Assembly: GCA_023134715.1 (NCBI GenBank)
Contig: JAGLUP010000005.1
Location: 1-64,000, forward strand
DNA length: 64,000 nt
DNA from: Candidatus Parcubacteria bacterium
GTDB lineage: Bacteria > Patescibacteriota > Minisyncoccia > Minisyncoccales > JAGLUP01
Direction of reading: 5' to 3'
Part shown: positions 43,753 through 61,499 of the stretch, piece by piece
Layout: each line of letters starts with the position of its first letter
Numbering within the stretch: position 1 is the stretch's first letter
Notes under the pieces: model-generated
What the model saw: only the letters and a program-made list of their open reading frames with translations
Databases searched by the model: none
Told to the model about the DNA's origin: nothing
Made by a program: the position numbers and the translations under genes

Positions 43753-43781
43753 ATTTTAATATAAAATTAAGGTGATAGCAA
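43753..43781 (-). promoter_or_regulatory. Promoter of the AAA_28-like gene
   Basis: TTGCTA (complement 43776-43781), 17-nt spacer, TAAAAT (complement 43753-43758). Twenty-six bases (43747-43772) are identical to 46959-46984, which forms the equivalent promoter of the AEC carrier gene. Confidence 0.7.
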
Positions 43782-43792
43782 ATAATAGCAAT

Positions 43793-46045
43793 ATGATAAC
43801 ATTATCCACATCAATTGATAAAATTCCCAAAATTGGACCGGTTTATGTGAAAAAACTTCATAAAATGGGGATTAAAACAGTCCAAGATATTTTATATCAT
43901 TTTCCTCATCGGTATGATGATTTTTCTAATCTTGTCCCTATTTCCAAAGTTAAGCTCAACCAAACTTGTTGTATTCAAGGAAAAATTTTAGAAATAAAAA
44001 ACAGTAGAACATGGAAAAAAAGAATGGCAATAACCCAAGCAATAGTTGAAGATAAAACCGGCGCCATTAGAATAGTTTGGTTTAATCAGCCATATTTAAC
44101 AAAAAGCTTAAAAATAGGCGACAATGTATGCTTGGCCGGAAAAGTTGCTTTAGATAAACAAGGAGCATATTTATCAAACCCTGCCTATGAAAAACTATCA
44201 CCCAAGGAGCTTAGCTCCAGGAGTTTAGCTCCTTACAATTTGACACATGTTGGCAGATTAGTACCGGTTTATCCTGAAACTGAAAAGCTCTCTTCCCGCT
44301 GGCTCCGTTATATTTTAAAACCCCTGCTCTTAGAATTTAGAAATAAAATTGCCGACCCGTTGCCAGAAAAAATTATAAAACAGGAAAATCTTTTGCCTCT
44401 AAATAATGCTCTTTGGCAGATTCATTTTCCTGATTCAATGGCTTTAGCGAAAAAAGCTCAAAACCGTTTTGCTTTTGAAGAGCTTTTTTTTATTGAACTT
44501 GCTGTTTTAAAAGAACGCCTGAAATTAAACCAAAAAGCCGCAGCTGCCGCTCCTATGAATATAAAAGTTTTGAAAAAATTCACTAAATCTCTGCCGTTCA
44601 AACTAACTGATGACCAAAAAAAATCCGCATGGCAGATTTTAAAAGATTTGGGAAAATCAATGCCAATGAACCGGCTTTTAGAAGGAGATGTTGGGTCGGG
44701 AAAAACAGTAGTAGCGGTAATGGCCGCTTTAAATACAGTTAAAGCTGGCTTGCAGGCAACTATTATGGCCCCAACTGAAATCCTGACAAAACAGCATTTC
44801 AAAGAAATCTCTCACTTGCTTTATCCTTTTAAAATCTCTGTCGCGCTTCTTACTGGCAAAGAAGACAAGCTCGCTTCAAAAAAACTAAAAAACGAAACAA
44901 TTGAAATCTCCCGTAAAAAATTGCTGGAAAATGTAAAAAACGGAAAGATTGATATTTTAATAGGAACCCACGCTTTAATTTCTCCTTCCAGTTCCAGGGT
45001 CTCCAGTTTCTTTTATAAAGACCTTGAAGAATTTGGATTTAAACCCAAAAAAATAAAAAAGAATAGAGTGAAATTTAAAAATTTAGGATTAGTAATAATT
45101 GACGAACAGCATCGCTTTGGCATAGAACAACGCGCGCGGCTTTGTGAAAGCTATAGCGAAGATACAAAATTTAGCGATTATGAAAACAGCAAAGGAGTTT
45201 TAATTCCTCATTTATTATCTATGACTGCCACGCCTATTCCTCGCACACTAGCTTTAACAATTTACGGTGACTTAGATTTATCTTTAATTAATGAATTGCC
45301 GAAAGGAAGAAAAAAAATCATTACTGAGATAGTGGCTCCTGCGGACAGGCAAAAAACATATAACTTTATTAAGAAAGAAGTTAAAAAAGGAAGAAGGGTT
45401 TTTGTTGTCTGTCCAAGAATAGAAAAAAACGAAAAAAAAGATGGTTTGCCATGGACTGATGTTAAAGCGGTAAAAGAAGAATATGAAAAATTATCAAAAA
45501 AAATCTTTCCAAATTTAAAAGTAGGAATGCTTCACGGAAAACTTAAATCAAAAGAAAAAGAAAAAATAATGAGGGATTTTAAGATTGGCAAAATTGAAAT
45601 TTTGGTCTCTACTTCGGTAATTGAAGTAGGGATTGATATTCCAGAAGCAACCGTAATGATGATTGAGGGCGCGGATAGGTTTGGATTAGCTCAGCTTCAC
45701 CAATTCAGAGGACGAGTCGGCAGAAGCAAACATCAGTCATATTGCTTTCTTTTTACTGACTCTCCGTCTAAAAAAACAAGGCAGCGGTTAAAAGCTCTTG
45801 TAAAATGTGAAAGCGGTTTTGATTTATCAGAACAAGATTTAAAAATCCGGGGTCCAGGGGAAATCTACGGAGTAAGACAATGGGGGATTCCTGATTTAGC
45901 TATGGACGCATTAAAAAATCTGCCTTTGGTTGAAAAAACCCGTGAATCTGTTAAACAATTATTAGAGCAGGACCCGGAATTAAAAAAATTCCCGCTTCTG
46001 CGAGAACGCCTCAAAGGATTCCGCGCAAAAATCCACCTTGAGTGA
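43793..46045 (+). CDS. recG: ATP-dependent DNA helicase RecG
   Basis: 750 residues from the ATG; an upstream GTG at 43772 is possible. Wedge OB domain (to about 170), helicase core with Walker A LLEGDVGSGKTVVA, DEQH box (VIIDEQHRFG), SMTATPIPRTLAL, and motif VI QFRGRVGRSKHQSYC. It reverses stalled forks and processes junctions. Two unusual inserts: a palindrome-encoded KELSSRSLAP (44204-44234), and about 30 extra residues between HALI and KFKNLGLVIIDEQ. Confidence 0.96.
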   Translation: MITLSTSIDKIPKIGPVYVKKLHKMGIKTVQDILYHFPHRYDDFSNLVPISKVKLNQTCCIQGKILEIKNSRTWKKRMAITQAIVEDKTGAIRIVWFNQPYLTKSLKIGDNVCLAGKVALDKQGAYLSNPAYEKLSPKELSSRSLAPYNLTHVGRLVPVYPETEKLSSRWLRYILKPLLLEFRNKIADPLPEKIIKQENLLPLNNALWQIHFPDSMALAKKAQNRFAFEELFFIELAVLKERLKLNQKAAAAAPMNIKVLKKFTKSLPFKLTDDQKKSAWQILKDLGKSMPMNRLLEGDVGSGKTVVAVMAALNTVKAGLQATIMAPTEILTKQHFKEISHLLYPFKISVALLTGKEDKLASKKLKNETIEISRKKLLENVKNGKIDILIGTHALISPSSSRVSSFFYKDLEEFGFKPKKIKKNRVKFKNLGLVIIDEQHRFGIEQRARLCESYSEDTKFSDYENSKGVLIPHLLSMTATPIPRTLALTIYGDLDLSLINELPKGRKKIITEIVAPADRQKTYNFIKKEVKKGRRVFVVCPRIEKNEKKDGLPWTDVKAVKEEYEKLSKKIFPNLKVGMLHGKLKSKEKEKIMRDFKIGKIEILVSTSVIEVGIDIPEATVMMIEGADRFGLAQLHQFRGRVGRSKHQSYCFLFTDSPSKKTRQRLKALVKCESGFDLSEQDLKIRGPGEIYGVRQWGIPDLAMDALKNLPLVEKTRESVKQLLEQDPELKKFPLLRERLKGFRAKIHLE
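44204..44234 (+). repeat. Palindromic insert inside recG
   Basis: AAGGAGCTTAGCTCC and GGAGTTTAGCTCCTT pair at 13 of 15 positions around one base. The left 15-mer also occurs in cca (60016-60038, minus strand). Both copies are read as KELSS. Confidence 0.8.
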
Positions 46046-57204: not shown

Positions 57205-57246
57205 GGAGACCCGACCTCCTTTGCCAGTGAAGGAGGTCGGGTCTCC
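57205..57246. repeat. Perfect 17-bp-arm hairpin (GACCCGACC family)
   Basis: GGAGACCCGACCTCCTT and its exact complement flank an 8-nt loop TGCCAGTG. The arm is identical to the elp3 insert at 31235-31251. Downstream GTTATTTTC is only weakly terminator-like. Confidence 0.85.
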
Positions 57247-57392: not shown

Positions 57393-57427
57393 AAAGACCC
57401 GACCTTTGGATTTAAGGTCGGGTCTTT
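57393..57427 (-). terminator. Terminator of the Hsp20 gene
   Basis: Perfect 14-bp stem (AAAGACCCGACCTT with its complement), 7-nt loop, followed on the minus strand by TTTTT. It ends 3 bp from the Hsp20 stop codon. Confidence 0.85.
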
Positions 57428-57430
57428 AAT

Positions 57431-57880
57431 TTACTGCTTAACTGATATTTTTCTCTCTTTTTCTCGATGAATTATCGGCAATTTAATAGTTAGGATGCCT
57501 TTTTTCATAGAAGCGCTGATTTCTTCAGGATTTACTTCTTCAGGTAAAACTATTTTTCTGGAAAATGCTCCCCACCAGCATTCTTGATAAAGATATTTCG
57601 GCCCGCCCGCGTCGCTCCCGCCGGGTTTTTTTCTCTCGCCCCTTATGGTTATTATATCGTTCTCAATTGAAATATCTAAATCCTCTGGCTTAACGCCGGC
57701 AACAGGGGACTGAATAACAATTTCTGAATCTGTTTGGAAAACATCAACAACCAGCTGCCCTTCTTTTTTAAACCATTTTTCCTCGCTTTCCTTCTCTTTC
57801 TCTTCTTCCAAATCTAAATCCAATTCTTTTATAGAAATCTCTTTTCCCTTATTTTTTTTTGATTTTTTTAAAAACCCCAT
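57431..57880 (-). CDS. Small heat-shock protein Hsp20
   Basis: 149 residues. An acidic N-terminal region (DLDLEEEKEKESEEKW), then the alpha-crystallin domain (about 48-140; VDVFQTDSEIVIQSPVAGVKPEDLDISIENDIITIRGER, AFSRKIVLPEEVNPEEISASMKKGILTIKLP). An ATP-independent holdase. A GC-rich palindromic insert (57601-57625) adds PGGSDAGGP inside the domain (about residues 85-93), where relatives have a short acidic loop. Confidence 0.95.
   Translation of the reverse strand: MGFLKKSKKNKGKEISIKELDLDLEEEKEKESEEKWFKKEGQLVVDVFQTDSEIVIQSPVAGVKPEDLDISIENDIITIRGERKKPGGSDAGGPKYLYQECWWGAFSRKIVLPEEVNPEEISASMKKGILTIKLPIIHREKERKISVKQ
57601..57625. repeat. GC-rich palindromic insert inside hsp20
   Basis: GCCCGCCCGCGTCGCT then CCCGCCGGG. 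The first 16 bases match the tsaD insert (59283-59298) at all but one position. Read on the minus strand both give SDAGG. Confidence 0.8.
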
Positions 57881-57901: not shown

Positions 57902-58624
57902 CTACTCACTAATCTCACAGACGCTCTCCATTTTATTCGCTTTTTTAAACGCAAAGAAAACAAACACGGAAAGAAAAATTAAAATAATTAAAGGCAAATT
58001 AAATTTTAAACTTCCCTCTATTGCTATTATAGAAAAATTATAAAGTCCGTGCAAGAACACGGCTATCCCCAGCCCTAATTTTCTAATCAAATATTTAAAC
58101 GTGTTTTTTGGCTCACAAAAAGACAAAGCCAAAAAATAGCCAATCATTCCAGAACATAAAGCGTGCAAAAAAGTGGCTCCCACAAATCGAAGAGCGGTAA
58201 CTCCTAAAACTCCTGCCAACGGCTGAAAAAACATTTCAGGGGAAAATAAAATTAAAATATTCTCTACTGTCGCAAATCCCAAGGCCGCGATAATCATATA
58301 AAGCATAGCGTCCACCGGCTCATCAAATTCTGAATTATTCAACACCTTTTTCTTGACTACTAAATATTTTAAGCCCTCTTCAACTAAAGCCACACCTATA
58401 AAAAAATTTAAAATTAAAGTTGATGTTGAGGAAAAATTTAATACCTTAGTAATTTCAAAAAATCCTTTTTCTAATAAAACAGCGGGGAAAGTAATCAACA
58501 TTCCGTAAAAGAAAATTCTTAAAATCATCCTGTTTGATTCTGGATGAACATCTTTTCGCAAAAAATACAAAAGCCAGATTATACCGGGAGCCAGGGCGCA
58601 AATTAAAAGAGAAAAACCATTCAT
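57902..58624 (-). CDS. PrsW-family intramembrane metalloprotease
   Basis: 240 residues, about seven membrane helices. Motifs FIGVALVEEGLKYLVVKK (EExxK), FVGATFLHALCSGMIGY and GIAVFLHGLYNF carry the Glu and His residues proposed to bind zinc. PrsW in Bacillus cuts an anti-sigma factor. The target here is unknown; no anti-sigma gene is near. It overlaps tsaD by 4 bp. Confidence 0.9.
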   Translation of the reverse strand: MNGFSLLICALAPGIIWLLYFLRKDVHPESNRMILRIFFYGMLITFPAVLLEKGFFEITKVLNFSSTSTLILNFFIGVALVEEGLKYLVVKKKVLNNSEFDEPVDAMLYMIIAALGFATVENILILFSPEMFFQPLAGVLGVTALRFVGATFLHALCSGMIGYFLALSFCEPKNTFKYLIRKLGLGIAVFLHGLYNFSIIAIEGSLKFNLPLIILIFLSVFVFFAFKKANKMESVCEISE

Positions 58625-59718
58625 ACCTTTAAGTTAGCATTTACTTTAATATTTTTCCAATTTTTTGTTTTTTGGTTTTTATGATAATACGCTGTTATGG
58701 CTATCATCGCCGCATTGTCAGTGCAGAAAATTTTTGGGGGAACCAAAAATTTTAGTTTGTAGTTTATAGTTTGTAGTTTATGGTTAAATTGCCTTCTTAA
58801 CTCTTTGTTTGCTGTAACGCCACCGCCAAGAATTATAGATTTTGCCTTATATTGTTTAGCGGCTTTAATAGTTTTAAAAATTAAAACATCAATTATCGCC
58901 TGTTGAATCTCCCGGCACATCTCTTGAATATATTTTTTTGACCTTGCTGTTTTTTCAGGCCGTTTTTTAAAATCATATAAGACCGCTGTTTTCAACCCAG
59001 AAAAACTAAAATCATAATCCTTGCTATGAAGCATCGGTCTTGGCAACTTAGTTTGTAGTTTATAGTTTATAGTTTGTAGTTTCGCGGCTTCAGCGGAAAT
59101 GGCAGGACCACCAGGATAATCTAACCCTAAAATTCTCGCTGTCTTGTCAAAACACTCCCCGGCCGCATCATCCCTTGTTTCTCCTAAAATTTTATACTTT
59201 CCAATTCCCTTCATTAAAATCAACTGCGTATGCCCGCCGCTTACCACTAAACATATCGCAGGGAATAAGTATTTTGTATTTTGCCCGCCCGCATCGCTAC
59301 GCGAAGCGTTGCGGGCGGGGATTTTGATATCTGGTGGCAACCAATTAGCAAGTATGTGCGCTTCTATATGGTTAACTGGAATAATCGGCAAATCCCATAA
59401 ACAAGAAAGCTCTTTAGCAAAATTCACTCCCACCCATAAACACGGCTCTAATCCTGGACCTATCGTCACCGCAACCGCGTCAATATTTGGTTTTCTGAAC
59501 TTTGATAATTTGGCTTTTCCTAATGCTTTTTTCAAAACTGGCTCTAAATTTTTCTGGTGTTCTCTTATCGCCATAGTCGGGTAAATTCCGCCATATTTCT
59601 TATGGATTTCAGCTTGAGAAGAAACAATATTGCTTAAAATTTTTACTTTTTGCTTATTAATCTCTAATACGGCAACGCAGGTATCATCGCAGGATGTTTC
59701 AATAGCTAAAATTTTCAT
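58621..59718 (-). CDS. tsaD: tRNA threonylcarbamoyladenosine synthase subunit TsaD
   Basis: 365 residues from ATG at 59718 (MKILAIETSCDDTCVAVLE). An in-frame upstream extension exists but is not family-like. Metal motif HIEAHILANWL, VSGGHTQLILMKG, FSFSGLKTAVLYDF, ILGGGVTANKELR and CTDNAAMIAI. It makes t6A37 on ANN-reading tRNAs with TsaB/C/E. Three repeats have invaded it: a GC-rich palindrome (PARNASRSDAGGQN, about 133-145) and two heptamer-repeat runs encoding KLQTINYKLQT-type peptides (about 212-222 and 312-322). Confidence 0.96.
   Translation of the reverse strand: MKILAIETSCDDTCVAVLEINKQKVKILSNIVSSQAEIHKKYGGIYPTMAIREHQKNLEPVLKKALGKAKLSKFRKPNIDAVAVTIGPGLEPCLWVGVNFAKELSCLWDLPIIPVNHIEAHILANWLPPDIKIPARNASRSDAGGQNTKYLFPAICLVVSGGHTQLILMKGIGKYKILGETRDDAAGECFDKTARILGLDYPGGPAISAEAAKLQTINYKLQTKLPRPMLHSKDYDFSFSGLKTAVLYDFKKRPEKTARSKKYIQEMCREIQQAIIDVLIFKTIKAAKQYKAKSIILGGGVTANKELRRQFNHKLQTINYKLKFLVPPKIFCTDNAAMIAITAYYHKNQKTKNWKNIKVNANLKV
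58751..58783. repeat. Heptamer repeat inside tsaD (distal copy)
   Basis: Units AAACTAC/AAACTAT (minus strand) with 7-nt period; three units make 21 nt, so the protein repeats every 7 residues (KLQTINY KLK). Confidence 0.8.
59050..59082. repeat. Heptamer repeat inside tsaD (proximal copy)
   Basis: About four and a half 7-nt units of the same AAACTAC/AAACTAT type, encoding KLQTINYKLQT. Frame kept. Confidence 0.8.
59283..59320. repeat. GC-rich palindromic insert inside tsaD
   Basis: CCCGCCCGCA/TGCGGGCGGG outer stem with an inner CGCT/AGCG stem and one T-T mismatch. In frame; encodes PARNASRSDAGG. It shares 15 of 16 bases with the hsp20 insert. Confidence 0.85.
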
Positions 59719-59936: not shown

Positions 59937-61499
59937 TTAAGTGACCCAATATTTTTTCTTGGTCATTTCGTCTTTTTTTATTTCAATTTTCTGACGCTCT
60001 TCTATGGCTTTTTTAGACAAGGAGCTAAGCTCCTTGTCAGATAATTTGCTTAATTTTTTAATTTCTTTCTGTAAAAATGTTTTTTTGTTCTTTTTTGGGT
60101 CAGCAAGAACATAACCCAATAGGACATCTAAAATTTGTCCTATCTTTGGTCCCGGTCTAATGTTTAAAATTTTTATTATATCATTGCCTGAAACCTTGAG
60201 TTTTTTAACTGAAATCACATCTTTGGATAATTTTTCAATAAGATATTTTAAATGTCTTAACTTATATGGCTCGGCTTTGGGACATCCAGAGCCAATTCTA
60301 TCGCACATTCTAAGCTGTAATAACTCCTCTATGTTTTCAGGACCCACGCTCCTGACTAATTTTCTTACTGACGCCTCGCCGACTTCGTCAACATTATAGT
60401 AAAAAAGATGATAACGAACCAATTTAACAATCTTTTCAATGTCTTTTTTAGAAAATTTCAAACGATTTAAAGCTTGAATTGTCATTCTCGCTCCCACAAC
60501 TTCATGATTATAAAAAGTAGCGTTTTCTCCCTTGCCTCTCTTTGTTCTTGGCTTGCCAATATCGTGAAGCAAAGCGGCTATACGGACATATTTATTAAAA
60601 TCCCGCTTAACAGCGTATTTTAAAGATAAAAGATTATGCTCATAAACCCCGTAAATATGATGTTTGTTTTGGGAAATATCCAATCCTTCTAATAATTCTG
60701 GAATAATATACTTTAAAAGCCCTAATTTTCGCAAAAGCTCTGTCCCTTCATACGCCCTGTCTGACATAATAATTTTTAAAAACTCATCTCTTATTCTTTC
60801 TTTTGAAATCGCCTGAAGCCAAAGGCTGTTTTTTTTAATCGCTTCAGCTGTTTTTGGTTCAATCGCAAACCCCAATGTAGCGGCAAATCTTACCGCCCTT
60901 AACATGCGCAAGGCGTCTTCATCAAATCTTTTTTCCGGCTCGCCTACAGCCCGAATAATTTTATTTTCCAAATCCTTCTGCCCCTCAAATAAATCAATAA
61001 TTCTGACCTTTAATTTTTTTCCAGGATAAACTCCTCCTGCCGATTGCCCATAAATTTGGCCTAAAGGGGTTGGCTTAATCGAAAGTATTGTTTGAACTTC
61101 TATTGCCATTGCGTTTACCGTGAAATCCCTTCTTTTTAAATCATCTTTCAATGTCTTAGCAAATTTTATCTCGTCTGGATGGCGCTTATCTGTATATTTT
61201 GCCTCGGTCCGATAAGTTGTAATCTCAATTTCTTTTAATTTAGAATTTTTGCTTCCTGTTTGAACAGTTACTGTAAGAAATTTGTTCTCGTAAAAATTCT
61301 TTGGGAATACTTTTTGAATTTCTTCTGGCTTGGCGTTTGTAGTAATATCCCAATCCTCTGGCTCAACGCCTCTCCCTCCTTCGCTCTCGCTTCGGCGGGC
61401 AAGTAAAAAATCACGCACACAGCCGCCGACAATATATGCCTCAAATCCTTGTTTTTCCAATTCTTTAATAATAGATTTTACTTCTTTTGGAATTTCCAT
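59937..61499 (-). CDS. cca: CCA-adding tRNA nucleotidyltransferase with HD domain
   Basis: 520 residues. Poly(A) polymerase head (EAYIVGGCVRDFLL, EDWDITTNAKPEEI, RRDFTVNAMAIE, EDALRMLRAVRFAATLGF) and an HD phosphohydrolase domain (about 280-390; HNLLSLKYAV, ALLHDIGKP). It adds CCA to tRNAs, needed because most tRNAs here lack it. Two palindromic inserts: RRSESEGGRGVE (about 33-43) between VRDFLL and DWDITT, and DKELSS near the C-terminus. tRNA-Ala follows within the same transcript. Confidence 0.96.
   Translation of the reverse strand: MEIPKEVKSIIKELEKQGFEAYIVGGCVRDFLLARRSESEGGRGVEPEDWDITTNAKPEEIQKVFPKNFYENKFLTVTVQTGSKNSKLKEIEITTYRTEAKYTDKRHPDEIKFAKTLKDDLKRRDFTVNAMAIEVQTILSIKPTPLGQIYGQSAGGVYPGKKLKVRIIDLFEGQKDLENKIIRAVGEPEKRFDEDALRMLRAVRFAATLGFAIEPKTAEAIKKNSLWLQAISKERIRDEFLKIIMSDRAYEGTELLRKLGLLKYIIPELLEGLDISQNKHHIYGVYEHNLLSLKYAVKRDFNKYVRIAALLHDIGKPRTKRGKGENATFYNHEVVGARMTIQALNRLKFSKKDIEKIVKLVRYHLFYYNVDEVGEASVRKLVRSVGPENIEELLQLRMCDRIGSGCPKAEPYKLRHLKYLIEKLSKDVISVKKLKVSGNDIIKILNIRPGPKIGQILDVLLGYVLADPKKNKKTFLQKEIKKLSKLSDKELSSLSKKAIEERQKIEIKKDEMTKKKYWVT
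60016..60038. repeat. Perfect palindromic insert near the cca 3' end
   Basis: GACAAGGAGCT and AGCTCCTTGTC around one base: 11-bp arms. Shares AAGGAGCTTAGCTCC with the recG insert; read on the minus strand it gives DKELSSL. Confidence 0.85.
61372..61400. repeat. GC-rich insert near the cca 5' end
   Basis: CTCCCTCCTTCGCT then CTCGCTTCGGCGGGC, an imperfect palindrome. In frame; encodes ARRSESEGGRG inside the nucleotidyltransferase active-site loop region, where relatives have 3-4 residues. Confidence 0.7.

Follow-up and report, generated by a model that had tools for sequence, protein, structure and literature searches.

Why do tsaD, hsp20 and cca, three genes in a window (the whole stretch of 64,000 nucleotides that was analysed) with a GC content of only 34%, carry short GC-rich palindromes that are translated with the host protein? 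A sequence-only reading had taken the three segments for one family of small palindromes, mobile or recombinogenic, that is tolerated in protein loops. That idea has held up well, since relatives have empty sites and the repeats are dispersed with unrelated flanks, but there are two families rather than one. We consider it probable that two distinct mobile palindromic elements, both short and dispersed among Paceibacteria-type CPR bacteria, are present here: the tsaD segment would be a copy of one (A), the cca segment a copy of the other (B), and hsp20 would hold a worn A copy. The argument draws on the following features of the window:

43760..46042, plus strand: ORF of recG, with GGAGCTTAGCTCC, the RAYT-linked core, in frame at 44206..44218 (no strand assigned; pattern matches)
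57431..57880, minus strand: hsp20, host gene of the probable worn element A copy (Pfam HSP20, E = 1e-20)
57601..57625, minus strand: segment of hsp20 (peptide GGSDAGG), probably a partial and worn copy of element A (15/16 bases as in the tsaD copy)
58621..59718, minus strand: tsaD, host gene of the element A insert (Pfam TsaD, E = 9e-85)
59283..59320, minus strand: element A copy in tsaD, an inverted repeat whose gene strand encodes PARNASRSDAGG, without counterpart in 29 relatives
59937..61499, minus strand: cca, host gene of the element B insert (Pfam PolyA_pol, PolyA_pol_RNAbd and HD)
60016..60038, no strand assigned: perfect 23-bp palindrome GACAAGGAGCTAAGCTCCTTGTC in cca, core of a third, RAYT-linked family
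61374..61403, minus strand: element B copy in cca, a 30-nt in-frame insertion (LARRSESEGG) missing in 25 relatives

Insertions in TsaD and Cca and the hsp20 segment

The tsaD segment was correctly recognised from the start as a GC-rich palindrome: its arms measure 18 nt each, are 89% complementary and have no spacer between them. Five hairpins as strong as this one occur in the 64-kb window, against 0.05 expected from 20 dinucleotide-preserving resamples. None of the 29 aligned relatives has, in its TsaD, the 12 residues that it encodes, and a solved TsaD (6nak) likewise contributes no residue at the insert site. In named collections, the relatives of the source genome are Staskawiczbacteria, Nealsonbacteria and other CPR genomes of the Paceibacteria type. 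In the predicted structure (mean pLDDT 90), the sole internal stretch below 50 spans residues 133-142; the insert, residues 134-145, lies between a helix ending at 126 and a strand starting at 154, in agreement with the proposed placement in a loop.

The cca product, a class-II CCA-adding enzyme by its Pfam domains, has exactly ten extra residues, LARRSESEGG, with VRDFL before and RGVEPEDWD after them, so that the exact insert is 61374-61403 and not 61372-61400, as had been thought. On one side of this site is the GGCVRD motif, on the other the catalytic Asp strand (DWD). All 25 relatives covering the site lack the ten residues and run VRDFL-RGxEPxDWD without a gap and with conserved flanks; a solved CCA-adding enzyme (1miv) likewise shows an alignment gap there. 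It had been said that the same segments at the same positions in all relatives would mark them as ancient protein parts. This is not what the alignments show for tsaD and cca, and a further copy, in the LeuRS gene of one genome (G154), is missing in three other species of the same genus.

Comparison with relatives thus bears out an insertion in TsaD (0/29) and Cca (0/25), but is less telling for Hsp20, which is just some 2-4 residues longer than most of its relatives and falls short of proving a worn copy. As had been noticed, 57601-57616 and 59283-59298 are identical at 15 of 16 bases, and a pattern search of the 762-kb genome finds CCCGCCCGCRTCGCT exactly nowhere but at these two sites. Judged by this similarity, the hsp20 segment is probably a partial copy of element A, and probably a worn one, since the few additional residues fall in a loop that varies among relatives anyway. 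Close by, two strong hairpins with GACCCGACCT and AGGTCGGGTC in common flank a tRNA-like sequence (window 57205-57246 and 57393-57427); they may be terminator-like or belong to another palindrome family.

Two families of dispersed repeats in coding sequence

Element A has the consensus CCCGCCCGCATCGCTACGCGAAGCGTTGCGGGCGGG and a length of about 36 bp, while element B, of 26 bp, reads CCCGCCGAAGCNNNAGCGAAGGNGGG. A single family for tsaD, hsp20 and cca is ruled out, because the cca segment, first thought to be related to the other two, belongs to B (pattern match at 61374-61399). In genome-wide pattern searches (the source genome comprising 762 kb in 12 contigs, with the window in contig C8), the left 15-mer of A was found in 15 of 247 genomes of the order, with up to five copies in each, and a reversed-pattern control gave one match overall. 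The central 22-mer of A, at up to two mismatches, occurs in 40 of 383 genomes of the class (control 0), and B occurs in 67 of 243 genomes (control 0), including the source genome with cca and one other site. Copy numbers of both are low, at 1-8 per genome. The copies of A have unrelated flanks, and the identical 36-mer is found across genera and families. The motif ATTTTG stands on either side of the tsaD copy; inspected by eye, the other A copies have no consistent duplication. A variant of A in the source genome, LPARNASHSDAGG, lies in an 849-residue repeat-rich protein (L394; G000:C7:2800-5900) that also has duplicated segments, AGGEPALPDDSILETDTPAQNEIIIIE.

Element A is not confined to CPR genomes, since two GC-rich IMG/VR contigs carry two copies each (L224 at 793 and 2804; L225 at 2309 and 5934), one of them in frame in a ParB-like ORF. 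Only matches to the 22-mer were used here, because the 15-mer gave 98 matches in IMG/VR, which by our estimate is about the number expected by chance for a GC-rich 15-mer in such a large collection. Plasmid and phage records yielded no element A match by BLAST, which is weak for a 36-nt query.

The sites used to ask how often copies lie in genes were fetched without regard to genes, and about 31 of 57 distinct A sites and 20 of 30 B sites fall in long ORFs, that is, with at least 40 codons on each side. Most of these are conserved genes: a Pfam match at E ≤ 1e-5 was obtained for 29 of 30 scanned A-bearing ORFs (one below the family cut-off) and for all 10 B-bearing ORFs. The host families include PNPase, FtsZ, SecA, UvrA, UvrB, SMC, QueA, RNase HII, SecD, formyltransferase and several class I aminoacyl-tRNA synthetases, among others, and element B is in frame in the TsaD of another family. 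Element A is open in five of its six frames and element B in four. Different genes read different open frames of A, and no simple copy in a closed frame was seen among those examined. It is not the peptide that is conserved, since host genes differ in the frame and in the strand of the element that they translate.

Hairpins, RAYT genes and the movement of the elements

As far as base pairing can be deduced from aligned copies, covariation shows that what is conserved in element A is a pair of imperfect, REP-like hairpins that overlap with an offset of 4 bp. In 37 distinct copies (36 columns), which are related to one another and from which the structure itself was derived, 97.1% of the cells of the left hairpin (columns 1-32) are paired, with 6 pairs changed on both sides and 18 double-changed cells, and for the right hairpin (columns 5-36) the corresponding values are 92.4%, 4 and 11. 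In neither case did any of 500 shuffles reach as many double-changed cells, and the three column pairs with the highest mutual information (3-30, 12-20 and 7-34) all lie within the two hairpins. A simple palindrome was rejected as the conserved unit: its pairing varies uncompensated, with only one pair changed on both sides, fewer than in its own shuffles. Each hairpin consists of an outer stem of 5 bp, an internal loop, an inner stem of 4 bp and an apex of 3 nt; the predicted minimum-energy fold is a simple hairpin for the free 36-mer and the left hairpin for the 32-mer. Several A copies contain another palindrome exactly at the apex: a 14-nt palindrome recurs at several sites, A sits within A in two families (G080, G111), and other apex inserts measure 31-86 nt. 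The tsaD of one relative holds three HPVKSFASSKRKSEILFNR-like inserts with a common outer stem and differing inner hairpins.

RAYT/Y1 genes are present in 130 of 243 genomes of the order, among them all 15 that carry element A, and this co-occurrence (Fisher P = 6e-5) persists in a within-family permutation (P = 0.0014). Element B is weakly linked to RAYT genes: the within-family P is 0.036, and no RAYT was detected in 17 of the 67 genomes that carry B. Element A flanks none of the 31 RAYT loci examined, and the flanking sequence fetched with the A copies (about 1.5 kb) contains no RAYT gene, which rules out, for these loci and flanks, that A is a RAYT-flanking REP. It is for this reason that we can only infer a RAYT as the mover of A.

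The single RAYT/Y1 transposase found in the source genome has palindromes built on GGAGCTWAGCTCC on both sides. At this locus (L003, G000:C6, 1279-1944; C6:74980-75645 in the genome), perfect palindromes on GGAGCTTAGCTCC lie at 1189-1235 and 1944-1986. The RAYT-linked core occurs 26 times in the source genome, including both sides of the RAYT gene, and is in frame in recG, pgk, a release factor gene (prfB-like) and cca, so that RAYT-linked palindromes do reach coding DNA there, but for A and B no direct link with a RAYT gene was seen. In three of these genes, cca, pgk and that of the release factor (window 60016-60038; L159 1525; L158 1466), the RAYT-linked palindrome is translated as KELSSL. 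According to alignments with homologues, it causes no change in length in these three genes; indeed, an insertion at 60016-60038 of cca is ruled out by a gapless alignment and a length equal to that of relatives. From the alignments it appears as if native sequence had been overwritten. Since the length does not change, replacement would fit better than insertion, and a recombination route stays open.

How might A and B have come to lie in so many genes? The likeliest scenario is that copies of both circulate among Paceibacteria-type CPR genomes, and that single-stranded hairpins are cut and pasted in trans by a RAYT-like Y1 HUH transposase, probably on the lagging-strand template, which would also account for the extra palindromes at the hairpin apex. 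As the elements have few stop codons, a copy whose net length is a multiple of three would, on landing in a surface loop, merely add a short peptide and survive selection, while other landings in genes would be lost. We regard transposition as quite likely to be the copying step, and give slightly less than an even chance to RAYT being the enzyme. A bolder version, that mini-hairpin elements moved in trans by HUH enzymes and nesting at the apex are a major continuing source of peptide insertions in CPR core proteins and spread between genera, possibly phyla, through viruses, is speculative and on the whole doubtful.

It is conceivable, at perhaps one chance in four, that the copies spread by recombination, that is, by template switching or ectopic gene conversion between hairpins, with DNA supplied by neighbours whose elements are identical across genera. 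The RAYT-linked core in cca, pgk and prfB, which leaves the length unchanged, would suit such a process, as would nesting at the apex, where replication forks could stall, and the finding of no mover beside element A. However, conversion requires matching sequence at the target, whereas A copies in unrelated genes have just the element in common and not the flanks, and the 30-nt insertion in cca is clean with conserved flanks. Less probable still is that A and B are MITE-like remnants of another DNA transposon or IS, mobilised in trans. A short inverted-repeat structure with no coding capacity of its own and the 17 B genomes without a detected RAYT are what one would expect of such remnants, but in the fetched loci no copy has a gene between its arms, as an autonomous element would (the longest insert there is 86 nt), and no consistent target-site duplication was seen by eye.

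Two further explanations can be given very little weight. That the segments are ancient or functional parts of TsaD, Hsp20 and Cca would agree with their being in frame in intact host genes; however, the alignments refute it for both tsaD and cca (the refutation does not extend to hsp20), the use of the same DNA in several frames and both orientations speaks against it, and the TsaD insert has no confident model. An equally slight chance falls to an artefact of sequencing or assembling GC-rich hairpins, a concern because nearly all carriers are metagenome-assembled genomes. Yet the same families recur in many independent assemblies, one of them a single contig (G218, element B), essential genes stay in frame and the copies show compensatory changes.

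Relation to known palindromic elements

A and B have features in common with several known systems. The Rickettsia palindromic elements (RPEs), of 105-146 bp, and their Wolbachia equivalents are palindromic repeats that occupy intergenic sites as well as in-frame sites within conserved protein genes, and their peptides are tolerated (PMC2229807). The likeness to them that had been suspected stands for behaviour, A and B being likewise in frame inside conserved protein genes, but not for sequence, length or lineage: A has about 36 bp and B 26 bp, both are GC-rich in AT-rich genomes, and both belong to another phylum, where they are identical across genera and families. Element A, unlike the RPEs with their restriction to the Rickettsia and Wolbachia lineages, extends across CPR families and the two IMG/VR contigs. 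REPs, or REPINs, are imperfect hairpins of 20-40 bp with compensatory changes, inverted pairs and RAYT genes in the genome, are mostly extragenic and often exceed 100 copies (PMC2817692, PMC3116915). Element A resembles them as a short imperfect palindrome whose pairing is kept through compensatory changes. However, A and B are often intragenic and reach at most 8 copies per genome, A lacks the conserved GTAG/CGTC end tag (in the 36-column alignment GTAG occurs only internally and on one strand), and inverted copies flanking a cognate RAYT are seen only for the separate GGAGCTWAGCTCC family. Among MITEs, ERIC and Correia/NEMIS measure roughly 100-200 bp. They are non-autonomous and small, and can be fused in frame into genes, Correia/NEMIS in a 107-bp form (PMC2229807). 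A and B are also non-autonomous small repeats fused in frame into genes, but they are shorter, and in the fetched loci no inverted-repeat ends in common with an IS were seen.

The closest known kind are thus the Rickettsia palindromic elements, and A and B are best filed as a shorter, cross-family variant of protein-coding palindromic elements. To our knowledge, in-frame mobile palindromes have hitherto been regarded as something peculiar to Rickettsia and Wolbachia, and in the literature searched, mostly outside subscription journals, we found no report of them in CPR bacteria. A and B have the appearance of minute mobile DNAs from which core proteins continue to acquire peptides. With at least two such families in essential genes across a class with reduced genomes, the gain of protein loops in this way would be a more widespread process. 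They also make it possible to test whether hairpins are moved into coding DNA by HUH (RAYT-like) proteins. Odd peptides of CPR proteins, such as PARNASRSDAGG, ARRSLGEGG and PAFAKASAG, are accounted for by inserts, and annotators and structural biologists should be careful not to take insert peptides for functional motifs.

TsaD contains still other repeats. The AT-rich TTTGTAGTTTATAGTTTG occurs twice in the tsaD of the window (58752-58785 and 59048-59081) as a second kind of in-frame repeat there, and in many CPR relatives (L010, L005, L022, L021, L014, L032, L076, L063) hairpins of other kinds are inserted in frame in loops of TsaD, for example SAQGGPASGG, present twice, and VIPGLTRNP..LDSRFRGNDK.
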